DNA from: Castellaniella sp. S9
GTDB lineage: Bacteria; Pseudomonadota; Gammaproteobacteria; Burkholderiales; Burkholderiaceae_B
Assembly (NCBI RefSeq): GCF_027257175.1
Contig: NZ_JAPFGD010000007.1
Coordinates: 1 to 64,000 of the forward strand
Reading direction: 5' to 3'
Length of the DNA: 64,000 bases
The first letter of the stretch is position 1, and the number at the start of each line of letters is the position of its first letter. Below, piece by piece: positions 25,974 through 55,334 of the stretch. Position numbers and translations under genes: made by a program. The notes beneath the pieces are model-generated. The model saw only the letters and a program-made list of their open reading frames with translations, did not search any database and had not been told where the DNA came from.

Positions 25974-26004
25974 ATTATAGCGTGGGTGCGGGGCCAGCGT
26001 TCAA
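25974..26004 (-). promoter_or_regulatory. Promoter of the ahcY-metF operon
   Basis: A perfect -10 TATAAT (25974-25979) on the minus strand lies about 8 bp before the riboswitch. A -35-like TTGAAC (25999-26004) is 19 bp upstream and overlaps the last codon of the cytochrome b fusion gene. Transcription would start near 25967. Confidence 0.7.
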
Positions 26005-27929
26005 GAGGTGGCGGGCCCGCTGGGCGCCTGGGCCGCCGTCAGGAACGCATCGGAAAAACAGGCGTTCTCGTCGAGCCCCTGGGCGATGAAGGCCGGCGCC
26101 GCCGCCTCGACCATCCTGACCGAGCCGCACAAATAGACCTCGTAGCCGCGCAGGTCCGCGACATCGGCCAGCATGGCCTCGTGCACCAGGCCGGTGCGGC
26201 CCGTCCAGCCGTCGCCGTCGGCGGGCTCGGAGAGCACCGGCACCACGGTGAAGTTGCCATGCTCGCGCTGCCATTGTTCGCAAAGATCCAGCATGTACAG
26301 GTCGGCGCGCCGGCGCACGCCCCAGTACAGGCGCATGGGACGCTGCACGCCGCGCGCGAACGCGTCCTCGACGATGCTCTTGACCGGTGCGAAGCCCGTG
26401 GCGCCCGCCACGAACAGGATGGGCTGGGGACTGTCGCGCAGCGTGAACTGGCCCAGCGGCCCCTCGAAGCGCACGACATCGCCGATCCGCATGCCCTGGA
26501 ACACATGGGTCGTGAAGCGCCCTCCCGGCACCAGGCGGACATGCAATTCGATCAGCCCGTCGCCGCCGGGCCGGCTGGCATACGAGAATGCACGCCGCTG
26601 GCCGTCGTCCAACACGATGTTGATGTACTGACCGGCCTTGAACTCCAGGGCTGCGCGGTCGGACGGTTGCAGGGCCAGGAACATCACGTCGTCGGACAGC
26701 GGCTCGAGGCGCGCCACGGTGGCGGTGTATTCCCGCACGGCCAGGGCGGGCCCGCCGGCGAAACCCTCGACCTCGACGACCATGTCGCCGCGCGGCAAGG
26801 CGCAGCACATCAGGGCCATGCCCCGGGCCTTCTGGGCATCCGTCAGCGCGCCGGGGCTGTAAGGACGGTGATCGTAAGACCCCTGCTGGACGGTGCAGAT
26901 GCACAGGCCGCAGGCACCGTTGCGGCATTCGAACGGCAGCGCCAGCCCCTCGCGCAGGCCGGCGTCGAGGATGGTCTCGCCTTCGCGCGCCTGGACCTGG
27001 GCGCTGGTACCGGGTTCGCCGTGGATCATGATCCCCGCCAAGCGCTGCTCGCCCCGACGGAATCGGGGCGGCCACCAGGGCAGCAGCGCAAGCAGCATGG
27101 AGGCGCCCAGCACCAAGGTCCACACCCAGCCCAACGGCCATTGCGTCAGCAGCGGAAAGATCCCCATGTAGAACCAGTCGAGCTCGATCCGGGAGACCGC
27201 CCGGGATAATTCGCTGACGCCGCCCTGGCTGTGCACCGGCGCCACCAGCGACAGCACCACCAGCGTCGCGAGCAGGCCCGCCACGATGGGGCGCGGCGGG
27301 ATCGTGCGCGCCTTGGGCACGCGCTGCGCATGGATGGCCATGACCATCAGCACCACCAGCGGCAGGCCCACGTGCATGAAGGACAGCAGGGAAAAGAAGC
27401 GGTTGCCGACATGTTCGGTGTAGAGGAAATTGCGCATCAGCGCGCCGTCGAAGATCGGCAGCCAGTCGAGCCATTCGAACGTCGCCACGGTGACGTATTG
27501 CGCCAGCTGGTCCCAGGGCAGCATGTAGCCATTGATGCCGGTGGCGTAGACCATCCAGATCAGCATGACCCCCGTCAGCCACGAGAACCAGCGGAACCCG
27601 CGAAACCGGTCGAGGGCGAAATAACGCAGCATGTGCAGCGCCATGGTCAGCACCATCGCGTCCGAGGCATAGCGGTGGAGGCTGCGCATGATGCCGCCCA
27701 GCCACCACTGCGTGGTGCTGAGCGAGACCACCGAATCGTACGCGTCGGTGATCCCGGTCTCGAAGAATATATAAAGGTACAGGCCGCTGCCGCCGATCAC
27801 CCAGAACAGGAAGAAGGAGATCGCCCCCAGGTGATAGAAGGGATTGATGCGATCGCCGAATGCGGCGTTGAACATCGCCTCGACCCGCAGGAAACACCAC
27901 TGCAACAGGCCTTGAAGTCTCTTGATCAT
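26001..27929 (-). CDS. Cytochrome b / 2Fe-2S ferredoxin / FAD-NAD(P)H reductase triple fusion
   Basis: A 642-aa protein with three modules. Residues 1-205 are a bc1/b6-type cytochrome b with both heme-ligand pairs: His85 and His99, His186 and His200, each 14 apart, plus GYMLPWDQ. Residues 215-285 add about two more helices. Residues 303-390 are a plant-type 2Fe-2S domain (Cys335, Cys340, Cys343, Cys375 or 376). Residues 398-642 are a flavin reductase: RAFSYAS for FAD, AGATGFAPVKSI for NAD(P), and the C-terminal YLCGSVRMVEAA. The last two modules resemble oxygenase reductases such as BenC. It should pass electrons from NAD(P)H through FAD and Fe-S into membrane hemes. Last gene of the heme-copper cluster. 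Confidence 0.88.
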   Translation of the reverse strand: MIKRLQGLLQWCFLRVEAMFNAAFGDRINPFYHLGAISFFLFWVIGGSGLYLYIFFETGITDAYDSVVSLSTTQWWLGGIMRSLHRYASDAMVLTMALHMLRYFALDRFRGFRWFSWLTGVMLIWMVYATGINGYMLPWDQLAQYVTVATFEWLDWLPIFDGALMRNFLYTEHVGNRFFSLLSFMHVGLPLVVLMVMAIHAQRVPKARTIPPRPIVAGLLATLVVLSLVAPVHSQGGVSELSRAVSRIELDWFYMGIFPLLTQWPLGWVWTLVLGASMLLALLPWWPPRFRRGEQRLAGIMIHGEPGTSAQVQAREGETILDAGLREGLALPFECRNGACGLCICTVQQGSYDHRPYSPGALTDAQKARGMALMCCALPRGDMVVEVEGFAGGPALAVREYTATVARLEPLSDDVMFLALQPSDRAALEFKAGQYINIVLDDGQRRAFSYASRPGGDGLIELHVRLVPGGRFTTHVFQGMRIGDVVRFEGPLGQFTLRDSPQPILFVAGATGFAPVKSIVEDAFARGVQRPMRLYWGVRRRADLYMLDLCEQWQREHGNFTVVPVLSEPADGDGWTGRTGLVHEAMLADVADLRGYEVYLCGSVRMVEAAAPAFIAQGLDENACFSDAFLTAAQAPSGPATS

Positions 27930-27939
27930 TGGATTCCCT

Positions 27940-29367
27940 TCAGCGCGCCACCGGCCGGCGAACGGCGCGGATCGCCACCACCACGAACAGCAGGCCGCCG
28001 ACGATGGCGATCAAGCCGCCCAGGCCCATCATGCCCATGCCGATCACCTCGCCGGTGCTGCGCAACACCTGTTCGGCGCCCGCCACCTTGCGCTGCACCC
28101 CGTAGCCGCCCGACCACACCAAGCCGATGATGTGGATCAGTTGCCCGATGCCGTATAGCCACGGCTGCCAGGTGGCCAAGCGGCCCTGTGGCGCCTCGTA
28201 GCCCAGCACGGGCAGGATGCGATAGACCATCCCCATGAGCGCCAGCGTCACACCGACGATGCAGCCGTGGTAATGCGCCGGAATGCGGACATTGCTGCCG
28301 TCGATGAAAATGCCGATCAGCCCGCCCGCGGCGAACACCAGCACCGACGCCAGCAGCGCCGCACGCAGCGGGCGCAGCGTGGCGTCGGCCGGCCGAAGAG
28401 CGACGACGCCCCAGACCGCCGCCAGGCCGACAGGCAGGATGGCTGGGCCGCCTCCCAGGCGCATGGCCCAGGTCAGCAGATTGCGGTGCTCTACAGAAGC
28501 GACCTCGTGCGCGAGATAGGCGTACGGGGTGACGAAGACACCCGCCAGGGCGAGGGAAAACAGCAGGATCACGACGCGCGGCGTGAGCATCGACCGCGCC
28601 CCGCAGGCGCTGGCCAGCCATAGCCAGCACACCAGCATCAGCAAAGTCCAGGTGAACTGCAGGGCGTGCCCGCCGCCCCAGAACAGGATCTCGTAGTAGG
28701 CCTTGCCGTGCAGGGCGGTGGGCAGCACCGCCCAGGACCAGGCGAAGCTGAGCACGCCGACGGCGGCCGCCACGGCGGCCGCGCCGAGGCCGAAGTGCAG
28801 GGCGCCGCGCCCGTCGTACCGCAGCCCCAGGCGCGGCGCGGCCAGCAGGCTGCGCAGCACCAGCAGCGCCGCGCCGCAACCGAACATCACCAGCCCCGCG
28901 AGGAACAGGGTCGAATCGAGCACCGGGATGTAGTTGGCCATGATGGCCTCGCCGGGGTCCAGGAAAGGGGCCAGCGCCATGACGAGCGTGCCGGCCGCCG
29001 TGACCCACAAGCCCGACCACGCCATCCATTGCATGCGCCGGGAGCCGTACAGGCTCCAGAGCAGGCCGGCCATCGCCACGAACCAGACGAGTACCGACAG
29101 GTCCACGTGCAGCACCAGCGAAACCCGGAAAAAATCGGCGGACGGCAGCCACTGGTTGACGAAGGGCGTACGCGACGCCACCAGCAGCATCGAAAAAAGG
29201 CCCGAGCCGATCAGCGCGGCCAGCCCCAGCCCCAGCCAGCCGCGCCCCAGCGCCAGGCGCGCGTCCCGGACAATGTCCAATTGATAGTCCGCGCCCAGGC
29301 ACGCCGGCGGCGGGGCCATGGGCACGCCACCGCGCAGGCCCGGCACATGGGAAGGATTTGCACTCAT
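27940..29367 (-). CDS. Heme-copper oxidase subunit I-like membrane protein with incomplete CuB site
   Basis: A 475-aa protein with about twelve helices and the skeleton of a heme-copper subunit I. His87 (LVLHVDLSVLVWF) and the pair His365/His367 (RIPAHYHGCIVG) would bind the two hemes. His234 (FWGGGHALQF) fits the first CuB ligand, but the expected His-His pair of the next helix appears as His294-Arg295 (VEHRNLLTW). No crosslinking tyrosine is seen. It could be a distant NO-reductase-like paralogue or a non-catalytic electron-carrying subunit. It overlaps the upstream gene by 4 bp and the fusion gene follows after 10 bp. Confidence 0.78.
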   Translation of the reverse strand: MSANPSHVPGLRGGVPMAPPPACLGADYQLDIVRDARLALGRGWLGLGLAALIGSGLFSMLLVASRTPFVNQWLPSADFFRVSLVLHVDLSVLVWFVAMAGLLWSLYGSRRMQWMAWSGLWVTAAGTLVMALAPFLDPGEAIMANYIPVLDSTLFLAGLVMFGCGAALLVLRSLLAAPRLGLRYDGRGALHFGLGAAAVAAAVGVLSFAWSWAVLPTALHGKAYYEILFWGGGHALQFTWTLLMLVCWLWLASACGARSMLTPRVVILLFSLALAGVFVTPYAYLAHEVASVEHRNLLTWAMRLGGGPAILPVGLAAVWGVVALRPADATLRPLRAALLASVLVFAAGGLIGIFIDGSNVRIPAHYHGCIVGVTLALMGMVYRILPVLGYEAPQGRLATWQPWLYGIGQLIHIIGLVWSGGYGVQRKVAGAEQVLRSTGEVIGMGMMGLGGLIAIVGGLLFVVVAIRAVRRPVAR

Positions 29368-29867
29368 TGCAGGACGATGCCTCCCTGATCAGCGTTGAAA
29401 TCGATCACCATCACCTGCGCCGGCGCCAGCGTGATCGTGTCCTCGCGTTGGTGGGTGTACCCCTCGGCGGACTGCTTGTCCTTGAAGCGCACGGCGATGC
29501 GGTGCTGGCCCGCCGGGACGTCCAGCCGCCGATACATGGTGGAAGCGCCGTCGCGCGACAGCCCCGACGGCGCCGCCACATGGCTGAGCACCGTCCGGCC
29601 GTCCAGATCCACCTCGATGCTGACCGGCGAGCGCTCGCGCTCGCACTTGGTGGCCTTGCGCATGTTGGGCGCCAGTTTGGCCAGCTCCTCGGCGGTATAC
29701 GGGCGGCAGTCGGCCAGCCGCGCCCCGTGGTGGATGAAGCTGACCTTGATCTGCGCCATGTCGGGCGGCAGGGGATGGTATGCGGGCCAGCGCGAAAACA
29801 CGCCGATCGCCACCGCGAAGCAGCCATACAGCAGGGCCTGGCCCGCCCAATCGAATACGCGCCTCAT
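29364..29867 (-). CDS. Membrane-anchored periplasmic protein of the heme-copper cluster, unknown
   Basis: A 168-aa protein. I use the ATG at 29867 (MRRVFDWAGQALL); the longer frame has atypical Arg/Pro-rich content. One N-terminal helix (residues 9-25) is followed by a soluble domain with ADCRPYTAEELAKLAPNM, KCERERSPVSIEVDLDG and RRLDVPAGQHRIAVRFKD, which looks like a beta-sandwich. Its position after SCO1 matches the unnamed orf1 of norSY-senC-orf1 clusters. No function can be assigned from sequence. Confidence 0.75.
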   Translation of the reverse strand: MRRVFDWAGQALLYGCFAVAIGVFSRWPAYHPLPPDMAQIKVSFIHHGARLADCRPYTAEELAKLAPNMRKATKCERERSPVSIEVDLDGRTVLSHVAAPSGLSRDGASTMYRRLDVPAGQHRIAVRFKDKQSAEGYTHQREDTITLAPAQVMVIDFNADQGGIVLQ

Positions 29868-29961
29868 CAGGGGCTCCTTGGGAACGGGGGCGCGGCGCGC
29901 CGGACGCATCGTGACTGGGATGCAAGGGGCGCGCCCCGGCAGCCTGTCGGTCGGATCGGCG

Positions 29962-30831
29962 TCAAGCGGTGCTGCGCCCCCTCTTTTTGTGCGCGCCTCG
30001 CCGGCTCGCACGCCATTCATTGATGAAGAAAATCATCATCAGAACGAAGAAGGTCGCACCTCCCGCGATCTGGATCGGCAAGGTGTAGTCGACCCGATAC
30101 GCGCCGGTCTCGGGGTCGACCACCGTGCACATGATGCGGACGCGATCCATGAGGTTGTCGAGCAGCGTGTTCGACGGATTCAGGGGCATCCCGGCCAGCA
30201 GCATCTTCAGGGGTTCGCCCAATGCGCCGGCCGCGACGTCCTCGCCATAGATCTGATGCACGATGCGGCCCTCGGCATCCAGGACCGAGACCTGCAGCAC
30301 ATGGTCGAAGCCCGCCGGCGTCGCGGCATAGGCGAAGCCGAAATCCGCCGTGAGATCGGGGACGATGGCGGCGGGTGGGCTGAGGAATTCCCAGTTGGGC
30401 GCGGTGATGCCGTACTGGGTGGCGAACGCCTTGAGGGCCTGCGGCGAGTCGGCGGGCTGGTTGAAGCCGATGCTGACGATGTTGAACTGGTTGACGCCCA
30501 GGCTTTTCTGCAGGCCCTTGACGGCCTCTTGCAACGAGCGGGTGGTGGCGGGACACACCCGGAAGCAGCCGGTGTAGATGAAGCTGACCAGCAGGGGCTT
30601 GCCGCGGAAGGACGCCAGGGACACCGGGCTGCCCCCGCGGTCGACCAGGATATGGTCGCCGATCCGGCGCCCGAGCGCAGCCTGGCTGAGGGCGAGGGCA
30701 TGGTCCGCATCCAGGCCCGACGCCCCGGCCGCCTCGGTGCGAGCGGGGGACGGCGCGGCAAGCAGCGCCAATCCCAGGCCGCAGGCCGCGGCGCCACGCC
30801 AAAGACGGGAAAACAACATCAAACCGGACAC
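29962..30831 (-). CDS. SCO1/SenC copper chaperone
   Basis: A 289-aa protein from a GTG at 30831 with AGGA upstream; an ATG at 30819 is an alternative. It has a signal sequence, a thioredoxin-fold SCO domain with TGCFRVCP (Cys89 and Cys93, CxxxC) and the third copper ligand His176 (GFDHVLQVSV), and an unusual C-terminal helix (about residues 250-272). SCO proteins load copper into the CuA centre of subunit II. Its place directly after subunits II and I supports delivery to the CuA site seen there. Confidence 0.9.
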   Translation of the reverse strand: MSGLMLFSRLWRGAAACGLGLALLAAPSPARTEAAGASGLDADHALALSQAALGRRIGDHILVDRGGSPVSLASFRGKPLLVSFIYTGCFRVCPATTRSLQEAVKGLQKSLGVNQFNIVSIGFNQPADSPQALKAFATQYGITAPNWEFLSPPAAIVPDLTADFGFAYAATPAGFDHVLQVSVLDAEGRIVHQIYGEDVAAGALGEPLKMLLAGMPLNPSNTLLDNLMDRVRIMCTVVDPETGAYRVDYTLPIQIAGGATFFVLMMIFFINEWRASRRGAHKKRGRSTA

Positions 30832-30855: not shown

Positions 30856-32556
30856 TCAACTGAGGCCCCAGAGCTGGCTGAGGTACTTCCAGTTGACGAA
30901 GTAGTACAGCACGAAGGCCAGCAGAAAGACCATGGCCAGCACGAAGGTGCCGGGTGCCACGAAGCCCGCGGAGCCGTAGGTCTGGACCGCCGCCGTCGGC
31001 GCCGCGCGCTGGACGGGCGTGAAGGTGTTGCTGACCACGCCGGTGTCGAGCTTTTTGCCCCAGAGCAGCGAGCCCAGCACGAGGTAGACGAACAGCGCGC
31101 CGCCGATGATGGCCACGACGCCGCCGATGCCCACCAGCCCCATCATCAGGTAGGCGGCGCCCGGCCACTCGTAGGCCAGGGCATGGCCGCTGAAGGCCAT
31201 GTCCCAATGGCGGCGGGACACGCCCAGCGTACCGGCGCCCATCATCACCAGGCAGAAGAAGTACATCGCGAAGCCGAAGAAATAGGGCTGGATGCGCGCC
31301 AGGTTAGGCGAGATGATCTCGCGCCGGAACAGCACCGGGATGAGGAAATAGGTGAGGCCCATGAAGGTCAGGGTGGACCCGATGACGACGGTGGCGTGGA
31401 AATGCCCCGGCACGTAGATGGTATTGTGGATCAGCAGGTTGAGCTGCTCGGTGCCCATCATCACGCCGGAGATGCCGCCCAGGAAACCGAAGCCGACCAG
31501 CGAGATGAACACGCTGGAGAATACGGGATTGCCCCAGGGCGCCTTGCGCAGCCACTCGAACAGGCCCTTGTTGAAGCCCCGCGCACGCTGCGCGACCTCC
31601 ATGGCGCCGGGAATCGACAAGGCATGGATCATCGAGGCCAGCACGGCGAAATACATGAAGTAGCTGGTGTTGACGATCTTCCATTCGGTGCTGACGCCCG
31701 GGTCGGCCAGGATGTGGTGGGCGCTGGCCAGTTGCAGGAACAGGATGTAGAGCAGGAAGGCGCCGCGGCTGACGCGCTCGGACATGGGCTTGGCGCCGAA
31801 GGCGATGGCCGCCACGGCATACCAGATCGAGATATGGGTCGCCACGTTGATCTGCTGGGACGAATGGCCCAGCGCCCACCAGATCACGCGGTACACCAGC
31901 GGATCGACGTTCTGCAGGAGCCCGATGGACATGAAGAAGGTGGGGATCAGGATGATCGCGCCCGACAGCAGGGTGAAGACCGCGATGATCCCCGCCGTGA
32001 TGGCGCCGAAGGTCACCAGCGGCACCGAGCCCTCGTAGGTCTTTTCGCGCTTGGCGACGACCAGCGTGCCGAAGAACACGCCGCAGGCGATCAGGGCGCC
32101 GACGGCGAACACGATCAGGCCCAGGTAGAACGACCAATGCGCCATCATCGGCACGTACGAGGTCATCATGACGCTGGAGTCGCCCCGGAAGACCGCGATG
32201 TTGTTGACCACGGCGCCGACCAGCATGAGCGCATAGCCCGCCCAGGCGATCCGTGGCGTGGCGATCCGGCAGCGCAGCAGGGAGGACGCGGCGAAGTACA
32301 GAACCGCGACCTCGAAAAAGATCATCCAGTAGATCAGCATGTCCAGGCCGTGCGCCGTGAGCACCATGTAGAAGGTGTCGGCGGGCAGCCAGTGCACGGC
32401 GGGCCAGCGCGTCAGCACGACGCCGATGGCCAGCAGTCCGCCGACCATCAGCGCGACGATGGCGGTGACGGCGTTGATCTTGATGAGTTTTTCAGCCTGG
32501 TCCTCGAACTGCAGCCCCGAGCGCGGGCACGTACGATAAGTGGTGTTGACGGCCAT
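30856..32556 (-). CDS. Heme-copper oxidoreductase subunit I lacking the active-site tyrosine (NO reductase-like)
   Basis: A 566-aa, twelve-helix catalytic subunit. Heme ligands: His69 (LTAHGLDMLIYW), His385 and His387 (VPGHFHATVV). CuB ligands: His231 (WWALGHSSQQIN), His280 and His281 (SAHHILADP). Oxygen reductases read GHPEVY at the first CuB ligand, with a Tyr crosslinked to His; here the segment is GHSSQQ, so Gln235 replaces that Tyr and the Glu is gone too. Loss of this tyrosine is a hallmark of nitric oxide reductases of this superfamily. The CuA-type partner and SCO1 neighbour resemble NorY of norSY-senC-orf1. An alternative is a quinol- or cytochrome-fed oxidase with atypical chemistry. 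Confidence 0.85.
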   Translation of the reverse strand: MAVNTTYRTCPRSGLQFEDQAEKLIKINAVTAIVALMVGGLLAIGVVLTRWPAVHWLPADTFYMVLTAHGLDMLIYWMIFFEVAVLYFAASSLLRCRIATPRIAWAGYALMLVGAVVNNIAVFRGDSSVMMTSYVPMMAHWSFYLGLIVFAVGALIACGVFFGTLVVAKREKTYEGSVPLVTFGAITAGIIAVFTLLSGAIILIPTFFMSIGLLQNVDPLVYRVIWWALGHSSQQINVATHISIWYAVAAIAFGAKPMSERVSRGAFLLYILFLQLASAHHILADPGVSTEWKIVNTSYFMYFAVLASMIHALSIPGAMEVAQRARGFNKGLFEWLRKAPWGNPVFSSVFISLVGFGFLGGISGVMMGTEQLNLLIHNTIYVPGHFHATVVIGSTLTFMGLTYFLIPVLFRREIISPNLARIQPYFFGFAMYFFCLVMMGAGTLGVSRRHWDMAFSGHALAYEWPGAAYLMMGLVGIGGVVAIIGGALFVYLVLGSLLWGKKLDTGVVSNTFTPVQRAAPTAAVQTYGSAGFVAPGTFVLAMVFLLAFVLYYFVNWKYLSQLWGLS

Positions 32557-32569
32557 GTCGGTCCTCGCT

Positions 32570-33109
32570 TTACTTGACGTACAGGCGGCTCACCATTTCA
32601 TGGTGGCCGATGCCGCAATACTCGTTGCACACAATGGAAAAGACGCCGGACTCGTTGGGCGTGACCTTGATCACGTGCTCGTAGCCCGGCACCACCTGGA
32701 TGTTGATGTTGGTGGGCTGCAGCGAGAAGCCATGGTTGTAGTCCATGGCGGTCAGGTGCAGCTTGTAGGTCTTGCCCTTTTCCAGTTCGAGGATGGGCCA
32801 CCAGCTCCAGAGGCGGGCGATCAGATAGATGTCGGCCCCCTCGGGCGGCGCCACCACGGGGATTTTCTGGTCGGTCTCGGTGCGCACCGTCCATTTATCC
32901 ACGAAGGCCTGCGTCTGGGCCATGAACTGCGCCGGGTTGGTCTTGTAGGTTTCGGTGGCGAGGTTCTGTTTGCCGTAGACGTGCCAGAGCACCATCATGA
33001 AGAACATGATCATGCACCACACGAAGGAAATGATGATCCAGGTGGCTTCGAGGCGGTCGAGGGGGTGCTTCCACCACAGCCGCTCTGAGGGGGGCAGTAT
33101 TGCGCTCAT
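32570..33109 (-). CDS. Heme-copper oxidoreductase subunit II with intact CuA site
   Basis: A 179-aa protein with one N-terminal helix (residues 22-44) and a periplasmic cupredoxin domain. All CuA ligands are visible: His126 (DYNHGF), Cys161, Glu163, Cys165, His169 and Met172 in CNEYCGIGHHEM. There is no fused cytochrome c. The WSWWPILELEKG segment lies in the place of the aromatic electron-entry patch. It should receive electrons from a soluble cytochrome c or cupredoxin. It is 13 bp upstream of subunit I and resembles NorS. Confidence 0.9.
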   Translation of the reverse strand: MSAILPPSERLWWKHPLDRLEATWIIISFVWCMIMFFMMVLWHVYGKQNLATETYKTNPAQFMAQTQAFVDKWTVRTETDQKIPVVAPPEGADIYLIARLWSWWPILELEKGKTYKLHLTAMDYNHGFSLQPTNINIQVVPGYEHVIKVTPNESGVFSIVCNEYCGIGHHEMVSRLYVK

Positions 33110-33402: not shown

Positions 33403-33524
33403 TTCTGGGAATTCGCCGCCAGGTTTCGCGCCAGTAAACGGCCGAACCCGGGCGGAAAGCTGTCAAAATGACACGCCCCCACGCCCCGCGGCCGGGGCTC
33501 CCCCCGTCGCCCCAGGAGCCGACC

Positions 33525-34496
33525 ATGAACGCCCATGTCCCCGTTTCATACCCGGCAGCGCCTCGCATAGCGCGGCGGCGCGCATGGCTGCGCGGCATGG
33601 CCTGGTTCTGCGCGGCGTTGGTGCTGTCGATCATCGGCCTCAGCGCCCACATGCGCCTGAGCCGCGTCGACCCAGCTTGTCAGCCCTGGCCTCAATGCCA
33701 GCAGGCGCAGGCGCTGGACGCGGATGCGCCCGGTGCGCCACCGGCCGCGCGCGCCGCGCACCGGATGGCTGCCTCCGCAGCCCTGCTGCTGGTGCTGGCC
33801 ATGCTGGCCGTCGCCTTGGGGCCGCGTCCCATCCTGTGGCCGGAGGGCCGCATGGCCCTGGGCCTGCTGGGGCTGGCGTTGTTCCTCGCGGTGCTCGGGA
33901 TGGCGGCCGGCGCCTCCGCGCTGCCGGCGGTGACGCTGGGCAACCTGCTGGGAGGATTCGCGATGTTCGCCCTCAGTGTGCGGCTGGCCACTCGAAGGAC
34001 CCGCGTGGGCCACGGCCGCCTTGCGGCAACGGCGCCACACGGGTTTCGCCTCGCGCTGCTGTTGGCGCTGGTCCAGGTGGCCCTGGGTGGGCTGGTGAGT
34101 GCGGGTCAGGCGGGCCTGAGCTGCCCGGCTTTCGGCGCCTGCGACCTGGGTGCGGGCGGCTGGCAGGCGTTCAATCCGTGGATCGAACCGGCTGCGGGAA
34201 CGCCGCCCACCCACGCGGGCGGGGCGTGGTTGCACATGACGCACCGCGGCGTCGGACTGGCACTGGCGGTGATGCTGGCGATGCTGTCATGGCGGGCGTG
34301 GCGCCGCGGGGCACGCGCCTTCGCCGCCGTCCTTGCCGGCCTGCCCGTAGCGCTGGTGACGCTGGGCCTGGCCCTCGTGGCGCTGGGGCTGCCGCTGGCG
34401 CTGGTCCTGGCGCACAATCTGTGCGCGGCGCTGCTGCTCGCCCTGCTGGCGAGCGCCCCGGACTGTTATTCGCCCGTGCCGGATGCCGGACCGTGA
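33525..34496 (+). CDS. ctaA: Heme A synthase family protein (CtaA/COX15)
   Basis: A 323-aa protein from the ATG at 33525 (MNAHVPVSYPAA), preceded by CAGGAG. Eight helices in two four-helix repeats are visible. Heme-binding histidines appear in IIGLSAHMRL (His where the canonical form has Arg-Leu-Thr), AARAAHRMAAS, WLHMTHRGVGL and VLAHNLCAALLL. An extracellular loop with CPAFGACD holds the family's cysteine pair. It hydroxylates heme O to heme A, so the divergent oxidoreductase may use an A-type heme. The sequence departs from standard CtaA and may do a related job. Confidence 0.78.
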   Translation: MNAHVPVSYPAAPRIARRRAWLRGMAWFCAALVLSIIGLSAHMRLSRVDPACQPWPQCQQAQALDADAPGAPPAARAAHRMAASAALLLVLAMLAVALGPRPILWPEGRMALGLLGLALFLAVLGMAAGASALPAVTLGNLLGGFAMFALSVRLATRRTRVGHGRLAATAPHGFRLALLLALVQVALGGLVSAGQAGLSCPAFGACDLGAGGWQAFNPWIEPAAGTPPTHAGGAWLHMTHRGVGLALAVMLAMLSWRAWRRGARAFAAVLAGLPVALVTLGLALVALGLPLALVLAHNLCAALLLALLASAPDCYSPVPDAGP

Positions 34497-52896: not shown

Positions 52897-53217
52897 TCAG
52901 CGCACCCGGCTGACCATGTATTCGACGGCCGCGCGCAGGGCGGCGTCGTCGGCCTTGGTGCCGCCGCGCGCCGGCATGGCGCCCCTGCCGTTGATGGCCA
53001 CGGCCATCATCTCGTCCATGCCACGCGCGATGATGGGTTCCCACGCCTTTTTATTGCCGAGCTTGGGGGCGTTGGCCGCGCCTGTGCTGTGGCAGGCCAC
53101 ACACGAGGATTTATAGAGCTTTTCACCCGAGGGGTTGACCTTGCCGCCATCGGCGGCCATCGAGGCGAAAGGCGCGAGGGCCAGTGCGAGGGCTGCGATA
53201 CCGAGAGTCTTGAACAT
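52897..53217 (-). CDS. Class I c-type cytochrome, probable NirK electron donor
   Basis: A 106-aa exported cytochrome from MFKTLGIAALALA (53217). A signal peptide ends near SMAAD. The heme site is CVACH (residues 39-43 or so), and the distal Met is in GRGAMPARGG. The overall pattern is c5-like. It is 50 bp downstream of nirK on the same strand, so it is a natural electron donor to the nitrite reductase, and could also feed the CuA subunit. Its stop is immediately next to the stop of the convergent C45 gene. Confidence 0.9.
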   Translation of the reverse strand: MFKTLGIAALALALAPFASMAADGGKVNPSGEKLYKSSCVACHSTGAANAPKLGNKKAWEPIIARGMDEMMAVAINGRGAMPARGGTKADDAALRAAVEYMVSRVR

Positions 53218-53267
53218 GAGGGTCTCCTGAGAGGCATGGCCCAAGGCCATGCCCGTTGTTTCATGGG

Positions 53268-54356
53268 TTATTTGGCGGTGACTGGCCGGGGCGCGGCCAC
53301 CTGCTTCATCAGGTCGTCGTTCCACTTGCCGTCCACCTTGACGTGGCCGGCAGCGCCCAGCTCGAAAGCCTCGATCAGGTTGTGATTGACGTAGGCGTAG
53401 ACCCCGGGCTGCTTGAAGGTGTAGAACGCCGCACCCGCCGAACCGCCGCGGATGAACCAGGTCTCGAGGTCTTTCTCGGGCGCATTAGCGAACTTGCCGG
53501 TTTCCCAGACCCAGTCGCCGTGGCCGCCGATCAGGTGGGGGCGGGTGTCGCGATTGGCCGAGGCGTGGATGAACAGGACGCTTTCGCCGACCTTGGCGGT
53601 CATGGCGCCGTCGCCGGTCAGGGCGCCGACCTTGCCGTTGAACACCACGTGGGTCGGGATCAGGCCGCGCATGACCTCGACCGTATCGCCGTAGCTCTCG
53701 AGCGCAGTGTCATATTCCTTGTAATTGCCGTCCTCGTCCTTGGGGATGTACAAGTCGAACTCGCCGATGGTGTAGGCCCTGTCGTAGTGCAGCGCATTGC
53801 CTGCGGCGTCCTTGAGGCCGTCGCGCGGCAGCACCATGATGGTGCCGCTCATGCCGGACACCACGTGCCAGGGCACCATGCCCTCGGGCGCGCAGTGGTA
53901 GATGAAGACGCCCGAGCGGTCGGCCTTGAAGCGCAGCACGGCTTCCTCGCCCGGCTTGACGATCGTCAGGCTGGCGCCGCCCAGCGCACCGGTGGCGGCG
54001 TGGAAGTCGATGTTGTGCTCGAGCGCGTTGGTGTCCGGATTGACCAGCGTCAGCTCGACGTAGTCGCCCTCGTGGACGACCATGGTCGGTCCGGGCATCG
54101 AGCCGTTGAAGGTCATCGCCTGCAGGGTCGTGCCGTTTTCCTCGTCGATGACGACCTTTTTCTCCTCGATCACCATCCGGAACTGGATCACCCGCGGGGC
54201 CGCCTTGGTGGCCTGCTCGTGCGCATGCACCAGCGGGGGCGCGACCAGCTCGACCTTGACGTGCTCGAGCTTGTCCACCGGATCGGCGAGGGCTGTCCCA
54301 CCCGCAAGAACGGAAGCCAGGGCGGTGGCGGCCATGCACAGACGAAAAACCTTCAT
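53268..54356 (-). CDS. nirK: Copper-containing nitrite reductase NirK (class I)
   Basis: A 362-aa periplasmic enzyme with a signal peptide ([20 protein letters not shown]). Type 1 copper: His of LEHNIDFH, Cys of [12 protein letters not shown], the second His there, and Met of VSGMSG. Type 2 copper: the second His in NIDFH, the His before the Cys, and His of [10 protein letters not shown]. The catalytic Asp and His are in HNIDFH and [14 protein letters not shown]. It reduces nitrite to NO. The [11 protein letters not shown] motif marks the class I form. Box elements upstream indicate nitrogen-oxide control. Confidence 0.97.
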
Positions 54357-54424
54357 GTTGAACTCCCTGATTTGTTGTGTCTTATTCGACGGTTCCATCG
54401 TGCCATGATCAGGGTTAACACTAG

Positions 54425-54438
54425 TTGCACTAGATCAA
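54425..54438 (-). promoter_or_regulatory. DNR/NnrR-type box upstream of nirK
   Basis: The minus strand reads TTGATCTAGTGCAA: TTG-N8-CAA, with TTGAT on one side and GCAA on the other. Its centre is 75 bp before the nirK start codon, consistent with a class II site if transcription starts near 54390, although no strong -10 is evident. Confidence 0.65.
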
Positions 54439-54475
54439 ACGATTCCAGGTATCAGCCCGCCAAAACACCGGGTGT

Positions 54476-54489
54476 TTGATCTGGCGCAA
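54476..54489. promoter_or_regulatory. Second DNR/NnrR-type box near nirK
   Basis: TTGATCTGGCGCAA, again TTG-N8-CAA, centred 51 bp from the first box and just past the nirV stop codon. It may assist nirK activation or bind a second dimer. Confidence 0.5.
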
Positions 54490-54494
54490 ACGAT

Positions 54495-55334
54495 TCAGCC
54501 GTCGCGCACCAGGCGAAAGCCCAGATTGCTGGGCGGCAGGCCGATGGAGCAGGCACCGTTGCGCGGATCGCGGATGAAATCCGGCATGGCGGCGACGTGC
54601 GCACCGGCAAGAATGCGCACGCTGCAGTTCTCGCGCGGCGGCAGCGGCACGGTGCCGACCGTGTGGCTGGCGAAACACGTATTGGTCCATTCCCAGACGT
54701 TCCCGCCGACGTCCCACAACCCCAGGCTGTTCGTGCCGAAATGGCCGAACGGCTGGGCCGGCTTGATGCGCCCGCGGCCGCGGGCCGTACTGCGCTCGTA
54801 CTCGGCCAGCCAGCGCACCGCGGGATCATCGGGATCGGAGGGCAGCGGCCCCTCCATGCGATAACGGTCGGCGGCGGCGCGCACCCATTCGGCATAGTCG
54901 GGCAGGCGCCAGGCCCGGCCGGTGGTGGCCGACAGCCACTCGGCATAGGCCGTGGCGTCGTTCCAGCTCACGCCCACGGCGGGCTTGTCGCCGGCCTGGA
55001 GGTTGCGGAACGCCTTGTCCAGGCGCTTGCAGGCGCCGGCCTGCACGCAGCGCGCATATTCGGCCTGGCTGACCTGGCGGCTCATGATGAACCGCCCTGG
55101 CTGGGTCATGGCCTCGATGACCGGAGGATCGACCGGCATGCCTCGGTCCAGGAACTCGCCGGGCACCTGCAGCGGGAACGTACCGCCCGGGATAGGGATC
55201 AGGCGCAATTCCGCCGGGGCGGCCGGCGGCGCAAGGGTGGCCGCCGCAGGCACCATCTGGGACATCGCCACGGCGGCAAGGCCGGCCGCCGCGCAGCCAC
55301 CGAGCAATCCTCGCGTGCGTTTCAAGGTTTTCAT
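54495..55334 (-). CDS. nirV: NirV, formylglycine-generating-enzyme-like protein
   Basis: A 279-aa exported protein with an N-terminal signal (residues 1-32) and a SUMF1/FGE domain: RFIMSRQVSQAEYARCVQAG, AVGVSWNDATAYAEWLSATT, RLPDYAEW, FGTNSLGLWDVGGNVWEWTN and the C-terminal SNLGFRLVRDG. In denitrifiers nirV regularly accompanies nirK, but its function is unknown. Here it lies upstream of nirK on the same strand with its own TTG-N8-CAA box. I do not see the paired active-site cysteines of true formylglycine enzymes with certainty. Confidence 0.88.
   Translation of the reverse strand: MKTLKRTRGLLGGCAAAGLAAVAMSQMVPAAATLAPPAAPAELRLIPIPGGTFPLQVPGEFLDRGMPVDPPVIEAMTQPGRFIMSRQVSQAEYARCVQAGACKRLDKAFRNLQAGDKPAVGVSWNDATAYAEWLSATTGRAWRLPDYAEWVRAAADRYRMEGPLPSDPDDPAVRWLAEYERSTARGRGRIKPAQPFGHFGTNSLGLWDVGGNVWEWTNTCFASHTVGTVPLPPRENCSVRILAGAHVAAMPDFIRDPRNGACSIGLPPSNLGFRLVRDG

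Follow-up and report, generated by a model that had tools for sequence, protein, structure and literature searches.

How does a heme-copper enzyme receive its electrons when the last gene of its operon encodes a membrane cytochrome b joined to an NAD(P)H-type reductase? The question is raised by a locus of Castellaniella sp. S9, a member of the order Burkholderiales, which was analysed in a window of 64,000 nucleotides (positions 1 to 64,000 of contig NZ_JAPFGD010000007.1). The original prediction, made from the DNA letters, described a single polypeptide composed of a bis-heme cytochrome b, a 2Fe-2S domain and an FAD/NAD(P) reductase, set it apart from the bc1 complex, and proposed that it could pass electrons from NAD(P)H or quinol to a membrane NO or O2 reductase. 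As far as the literature was surveyed, the electron source of proteobacterial eNOR-type NO reductases is not settled. Here, the architecture of the fusion, its genomic setting and its distribution are considered together, along with the roles that they suggest. The features under discussion are collected in Table 1, and genomes and loci are denoted by G and L numbers.

Table 1. Coordinates of the fusion gene, its domains and its neighbours in the window
Feature	Position	Strand	Description or basis
Cytochrome b - 2Fe-2S - FAD/NAD(P) reductase fusion	26001..27929	-	642 aa, ATG start
Cytochrome b part, residues 1-290, six membrane helices	27060..27929	-	PF00033, alignments, AlphaFold model, charge bias
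Plant-type 2Fe-2S domain, residues 307-379 (C335, C340, C343, C375)	26793..27011	-	PF00111, invariant cysteines
FAD-binding domain, residues 404-495	26445..26720	-	PF00970
NAD(P)-binding domain, residues 506-610, GATGFAP motif	26100..26414	-	PF00175
Second COX1-family protein cox1L, 475 aa, no HH pair for CuB	27940..29367	-	PF00115
218-aa protein, no family match, N-terminal hydrophobic stretch, C105 and C126 conserved	29364..30020	-	
SCO1/SenC copper chaperone, CxxxC and His conserved	29962..30831	-	PF02630
Heme-copper subunit I, eNOR type, GHSSQQ, Q235	30856..32556	-	PF00115, ba3-oxidase alignment
Subunit II, complete CuA ligands H126, C161, E163, C165, H169, M172	32570..33109	-	PF00116, ba3 subunit II match
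Small one-helix ORF, 52 aa	33122..33280	-	Translation
Fnr/Anr/Dnr-type box, one mismatch to TTGATNNNNATCAA	33389..33402	.	
Heme A synthase COX15/CtaA, divergent from operon	33468..34496	+	PF02628
Copper nitrite reductase NirK, 26 kb off, outside operon	53268..54398	-	TIGR02376, multicopper oxidase domains

Architecture and integrity of the fusion

From the N- to the C-terminus, Pfam models recognise Cytochrome_B (residues 26-201), Fer2 (307-379), FAD_binding_6 (404-495) and NAD_binding_1 (506-610), all above their curated cut-offs. This order and the invariant ligands agree with the predicted domain make-up. The histidines of the cytochrome b part (H85, H99, H186 and H200) are kept in 19 of 19 aligned cytochrome b domains and in all 46 fusions of an alignment composed of the window and 45 named loci, in which the four 2Fe-2S cysteines (C335, C340, C343 and C375) are likewise invariant (46/46). 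By analogy with bc1, we take the heme of H85 and H186 to lie on the periplasmic side and that of H99 and H200 on the cytoplasmic side. An AlphaFold model generated from the 46-sequence alignment consists of six long membrane helices followed by the reductase (mean pLDDT 81.1, pTM 0.60), and the predicted loops contain 15 Lys and Arg residues on the cytoplasmic (N) side and four on the periplasmic (P) side. On the strength of this charge bias and the six-helix model, the reductase domain should lie on the cytoplasmic side of the membrane. By sequence, the closest solved structure to the membrane part is cytochrome b6, and those closest to the tail are the P450 reductase GcoB and benzoate dioxygenase reductase.

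The cytochrome b part also carries two Qo-like motifs, LPWD (137-140) and LDWF (250-253). The cytochrome b of the host bc1 complex aligns with it through the Qo region, placing LPWG opposite LPWD and PVWY opposite LDWF; the latter occupies the position of the canonical PEWY-type motif. D140, D251 and W252 are invariant in both cytochrome b alignments, including both of the tail types described below. Membership of a bc1 complex was considered and rejected. The host has a separate operon for Rieske protein, cytochrome b and cytochrome c1 elsewhere in its genome, and no relative of the host Rieske or c1 protein, nor any Rieske motif, was found in 130 loci when its own bc1 served as the control. 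The fusion was thus rightly distinguished from bc1 at the outset.

A joint between unrelated domains may also stem from assembly error or a shifted reading frame. A search of genome contigs returned at least 575 relatives of the cytochrome b, the best 80 of which are the named loci referred to throughout. A single uninterrupted ORF with Fer2 and FAD motifs is present in 76 of these best 80 of at least 575, one of the 76 being cut by a contig end and another starting at one, and the strict NAD pattern is also matched by 70 of the 76. Two of the 80 end after the cytochrome b (L131, L144) and two shift frame within the reductase (L174, L181). Among 61 genomes searched, the fusion recurs in the same-genus genome G001 at 87% identity, and at full length with 54-58% identity in G003, G030, G045 and G057. 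The named loci that read through and the full-length relatives in five genomes rule out an assembly or frameshift artefact. A 92-row tree gathers the NAD(P)H-type cytochrome b sequences into one clade (SH-aLRT 100; 42 fused rows and one copy cut by a contig end), and in a tree of the reductases the 20 fused members form one branch (SH-aLRT 87) beside 27 standalone reductases. A single fusion event is the simplest reading of this one clade and one branch; the cytochrome b probably acquired its NAD(P)H tail once.

The operon and its heme-copper enzyme

The fusion closes a tight operon that encodes a heme-copper enzyme with a CuA site, which bears out the membership of a heme-copper cluster entertained in the original prediction. 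Along the minus strand, the operon is composed of the 52-aa ORF, CuA subunit II, subunit I, SCO, the 218-aa protein, cox1L and the fusion, with intergenic gaps of 10-24 bases or overlaps. Gene order is much alike in sets of 41 and 81 stretches, wherever the contig is long enough, and in four of the 41 (G211, G384, G301 and G136) the fusion is divergent from the operon. Across the aligned loci, subunit II retains its CuA ligands and SCO its CxxxC. The 52-aa ORF resembles the small subunit IIa of B-family enzymes; comparable small ORFs stand ahead of cox2 in G001 and on plasmids of Thermus and Thermomicrobium, and a regular expression matched a small ORF at this place in 8 of 96 clusters.

Of the 91 loci in which cox2, cox1 and cytochrome b are all present, 87 contain cox1L and 88 the 218-aa two-Cys protein. 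The two-Cys protein is sometimes present twice. In cox1L, H87, H234, H365, H367 and H412 are conserved at 99-100% (108 rows), and the protein possesses heme-type histidines, a GGGHxxQ motif and the extra H412. The HH pair of CuB is absent, so cox1L is unlikely to be a second active enzyme.

Subunit I aligns with ba3 oxidase (E 1e-48), and its six metal-ligand histidines (H69, H231, H280, H281, H385 and H387) are conserved at 99-100%. Q235 is situated opposite the cross-linked Tyr of ba3, and Gln occupies this site in 100% of 98 aligned rows. A GH..QQ-type motif is found in 97 of 106 subunit I ORFs, with the remaining nine partial or missed by the pattern, and the adjoining subunit II (32570-33109) is a cupredoxin with all CuA ligands conserved. 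According to PMC8756737 (Table A4 among its data), the active-site residue is Gln in eNOR, Asn in sNOR, Asp in gNOR and Tyr in the oxygen reductases, and the same source reports putative eNOR in betaproteobacteria. Because Gln replaces the cross-linked Tyr, the published hallmark of eNOR, the enzyme of the cluster is read as an eNOR, for which NO would be the substrate. The prospect of an NO or O2 reductase as the partner is accordingly narrowed toward NO. An ordinary O2 reductase is disfavoured by the same Gln, as well as by the Fnr-type boxes and the company of nir genes described next. The SCO gene had also brought to mind the sNOR of ammonia oxidisers (NorSY-SenC-orf1), a candidate rejected on the Asn of sNOR in that same source, where subunit I here has Gln.

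Association with denitrification genes

The box upstream of the operon differs at one position from TTGATNNNNATCAA, the Fnr/Anr/Dnr consensus. With at most one mismatch allowed, such a box lies upstream of subunit II in 38 of 91 clusters, at least three genomes being counted twice among them; 15 boxes are perfect, and random windows drawn from the same loci yield 4.0%. Cytochrome d1-like (d1-domain) ORFs are found in 38, NirJ-like ORFs in 22 and Crp-family ORFs in 33 of the 130 fetched loci. At the level of genomes, d1 genes are present in 33 of 36 cytochrome-b-positive and 6 of 36 negative genomes (Fisher p 8e-11), and d1 or NirK in 35 of 36 and 18 of 36, respectively (Fisher p 6e-6); both tests ignore kinship, and the negatives were hand-picked from other genera and are unmatched by phylogeny. 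NirK above cut-off is itself commoner in the negatives (13 of 36 versus 2 of 36). Together, the Fnr-type boxes, the company of nirS or nirK and the neighbouring heme d1 genes point to a tie between the cluster and denitrification.

The nirK gene of the window (TIGR02376 match above cut-off at G000:C31:53289-54266) is found at 52897-55334 with a cytochrome c gene and an FGE-domain gene, the latter presumably NirV-like. Fnr-like boxes with two mismatches each lie upstream of it at 54425 and 54476.

Co-occurrence with eNOR

Among 399 genomes of the order, the cytochrome b is found in 36 and an orthologous subunit I in 35, all of them among the 36; three weaker subunit-I matches at 25-29% are left out of this count. 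The exception, G186, carries the cytochrome b gene on a 4-kb contig in an assembly of 580 contigs. In further subunit-I-positive genomes from samples of the class and phylum, the cytochrome b is present in 52 of 54, with G688 and G804 having subunit I and no cytochrome b that could be found. The overall figure is thus 87 of 89 subunit-I-positive genomes (35/35 in the order and 52/54 beyond). Viewed from the cytochrome b, subunit I lies within the fetched stretch in 65 of the 80 named loci, the best 80 of at least 575; for the other 15 it is elsewhere in the genome in 12 and was not found in three. When sought beside heme-copper clusters, relatives of the fusion are as a rule not apart from them, with one orphan copy, in G508.

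In an Accumulibacter MAG (L189:3976-6523), two cytochrome b genes appear, by eye, beside an ABC-type ATPase and a permease-like gene, and subunit I is located at another place in the genome.

Relatives of eNOR with 47-48% identity are also present on Thermus and Thermomicrobium plasmids, where no cytochrome b was found in the eNOR stretches (19 kb read). These stretches indicate that eNOR does not need the cytochrome b. On the Thermus plasmid (L190:8983-11685), the eNOR-like gene adjoins an Rrf2 regulator and a DUF542 protein, neighbours that fit an NO-linked role.

Two types of cytochrome b tail

The cytochrome b is found with an alternative tail composed of two 4Fe-4S motifs and an FlpD domain (e.g. 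L043:4636-6189 and L109:9001-10581). FlpD provides a link to flavin-based bifurcation in methanogens. Within the order, 27 genomes possess both tail types, with one copy truncated at a contig end in two of them, and four have the NAD(P)H type alone (G000, G001, G057 and G134). The NAD(P)H type is missing from G046, G297, G326, G355 and G414, the tails of the last two being unseen or unrecognised.

Beyond the order, a full-length NAD(P)H fusion occurs among the 54 further genomes in G508 only. This copy (L192:9086-11083) lies on the same contig as the eNOR cluster at a distance of 1.9 Mb, or of 0.9 Mb in the other direction if the contig is circular, and that cluster carries its own cytochrome b-FlpD. 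The remaining copies are encoded by ORFs mostly of 505-700 aa, with identity over the cytochrome b alone, which fits the FlpD type, and the FlpD tail was read directly in G508, G581, G582, G865, G927 and one Defluviimonas plasmid. Outside the order, therefore, the cytochrome b seems mostly to bear the 4Fe-4S/FlpD tail. Two FlpD-type copies stand in tandem in G865 and G927. Given its absence from the Thermus and Thermomicrobium stretches, and an NAD(P)H tail that was seen beyond the order in G508 only, acquisition of the cytochrome b seems to have taken place within Pseudomonadota, with the NAD(P)H tail as a later swap or duplicate.

Proposed role and alternatives

The interpretation toward which we lean is that the fusion serves an eNOR-type NO reductase system as its electron port on the cytoplasmic side, carrying electrons from NAD(P)H to eNOR either directly or via quinone. 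NAD(P)H would reduce the FAD and the FAD the 2Fe-2S cluster, from which electrons would pass over the two b hemes and so arrive at the periplasmic face of the membrane. At that face, eNOR might be reached by contact with the CuA subunit or cox1L, or via quinone at the Qo-like site, and NO would be converted to N2O without need for bc1 and cytochrome c. Flavohemoglobin and NorVW, which remove NO in the cytoplasm with NADH, provide an analogy for such a route. We infer the direction of electron flow, the immediate acceptor and the coenzyme, be it NADH or NADPH; the reductase and the two heme pairs make up an unbroken route that starts at NAD(P)H and ends on the periplasmic side, where the acceptor would be. 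Possible partners on that side would be eNOR by contact, a quinone or a periplasmic carrier, and the strict link of the cytochrome b with eNOR favours contact or a dedicated quinone step.

The domain order, the ligands and the predicted cytoplasmic topology of the reductase argue for an electron port, as do the co-occurrence with eNOR, the Gln mark of subunit I, the Fnr-type boxes and the nir/d1 context. Against this, the CuA of eNOR could be fed by a periplasmic cytochrome c or cupredoxin, and the host possesses bc1; electrons flowing outward from the cytoplasm would also spend membrane potential. The link is further loosened by the Thermus and Thermomicrobium stretches and by G688 and G804, all without the cytochrome b, by the distance of the G508 fusion from the eNOR cluster and by the three of 80 named genomes without subunit I. 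NirK alone is commoner among the negatives, and the eNOR clusters of genomes beyond the order appear for the most part to rely on the other tail. The Qo-like motifs equally fit a quinone partner. Indeed, with LPWD and LDWF aligned to the Qo regions of the host bc1 cytochrome b, the fusion could be an NAD(P)H:quinone reductase that reduces ubiquinone at the Qo-like site and feeds the quinone pool. eNOR would then be fed later via bc1 and cytochrome c, both the presence of bc1 in the host and the G508 copy away from heme-copper genes would be accommodated, and the place of the gene in the operon would reflect shared regulation. NqrF, a subunit of an NADH:quinone reductase, is among the matches of the reductase domain as well. 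An NADH:quinone reductase of general use would, however, be expected in genomes without eNOR, whereas eNOR subunit I is present in 30 of the 31 NAD(P)H-type genomes of the order (a number that includes G344, whose copy is cut by a contig end and was placed by the tree), the exception being the fragmented G186. We consider this role unlikely.

The cost in membrane potential would vanish if electrons ran the other way, since quinol oxidation would build the potential rather than spend it. Quinol would be oxidised at the Qo-like site and its two electrons parted, one going to the high-potential eNOR side and the other over the b hemes to the cytoplasmic tail. The fusion would then be a Rieske-free relative of bc1 bifurcation, with NAD(P)H as its product here and, where the tail is FlpD, a reduced iron-sulfur or flavin carrier. 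The Qo-like motifs, with D140, D251 and W252 invariant in both tail types, and the connection of FlpD with flavin-based bifurcation are consistent with this direction. It is nonetheless improbable, as none of the 130 loci read holds a relative of the host Rieske or c1 protein, the reductase is of the NAD(P)H-oxidising oxygenase type, and the potentials are unfavourable: with ubiquinone, the second electron would lack the strength to reduce NAD+ short of a very strong pull on the first. The specific form in which a Rieske-free, bc1-like quinol site splits quinol between eNOR and the b hemes, and thence to NAD(P)H or a low-potential carrier, has a slimmer chance still. The neighbouring SCO, with its intact CxxxC, and the protein with two conserved Cys suggest another occupation, namely that the fusion reduces periplasmic Cu(II), or the cysteines of SCO or of the 218-aa protein, during the building of CuA, much as MsrQ with Fre serves MsrP; its NAD domain does resemble the flavin reductase Fre of E. 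coli (1qfj, E 1.1e-33). Assembly of CuA enzymes does not usually call for a reductase of this kind, no fusion is found in the Thermus and Thermomicrobium stretches, and two different tails and duplicated copies suit an electron donor better than an assembly factor, all of which makes a function in assembly improbable.

Returning to the electron port, a candidate entry point for eNOR electrons can now be named, in two cytoplasm-facing versions that span the 87 of 89 subunit-I-positive genomes. Should the electrons indeed come from NAD(P)H, this would constitute a membrane route bypassing bc1 and cytochrome c, with bearing on N2O formation by denitrifiers and on NO defence. Should they run in the opposite direction, a new kind of bifurcation would be at hand, and a Rieske-free quinol split, if true, would mean that NO respiration drives the making of reductant.

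Comparison with known systems

The membrane part shares with the cytochrome b of bc1 and b6f complexes a bis-heme four-helix core with two His pairs, along with cd and ef loops that contain Qo-like motifs. It differs in having six helices and a reductase tail, and in the lack of Rieske or c1 relatives in its loci; relative to the host bc1, PVWY is exchanged for LDWF and LPWG for LPWD. The tail has the Fer2 - FAD - NAD order of BenC, GcoB and the standalone Burkholderiales-type reductases, and all domains and motifs of the oxygenase-type (BenC class) reductases are present, namely plant-type 2Fe-2S, FAD and NAD. Identity is 35% to GcoB, 30% to benzoate reductase and 39-50% to the best standalone relatives, and the BenC equivalog model scores 225.9 bits against a cut-off of 430. 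Unlike these proteins, the reductase of the fusion sits behind a membrane cytochrome b and forms a branch of its own (SH-aLRT 87).

A path from NAD(P)H through FAD (and 2Fe-2S) into the membrane is also a feature of NqrF of Na+-NQR and of NOX/SpNOX. NqrF is not known to contain a heme cytochrome b, and the nqrF model reaches 106.3 bits, short of its cut-off of 295. NOX is built on a ferric-reductase membrane domain and is not known to carry a 2Fe-2S cluster; in the Pfam search, the membrane part was matched by Cytochrome_B models alone and not by a ferric-reductase-like domain. The 50 best Foldseek hits include reductase relatives, NqrF among them, with SpNOX matching weakly over the full length.

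RME88945.1, listed in an appendix table of PMC8756737 as cytochrome b6 - DMSOR-beta-like - FlpD, would seem to represent the same cytochrome b with its alternative tail. In that table, the protein appears as a domain list by accession only, with no tie there to eNOR electron transfer. In the literature surveyed, which did not extend to Murali et al. (2024), a paper that may mention the cytochrome b, no description of the fusion beside eNOR was recognised. In common with eNOR, a B-family-like heme-copper NO reductase described in PMC8756737, the cluster has a CuA subunit II and a subunit I that retains all six metal-ligand histidines and carries Gln in place of Tyr. Its extra components are cox1L, the two-Cys protein and a cytochrome b whose tail is of the NAD(P)H or FlpD type.
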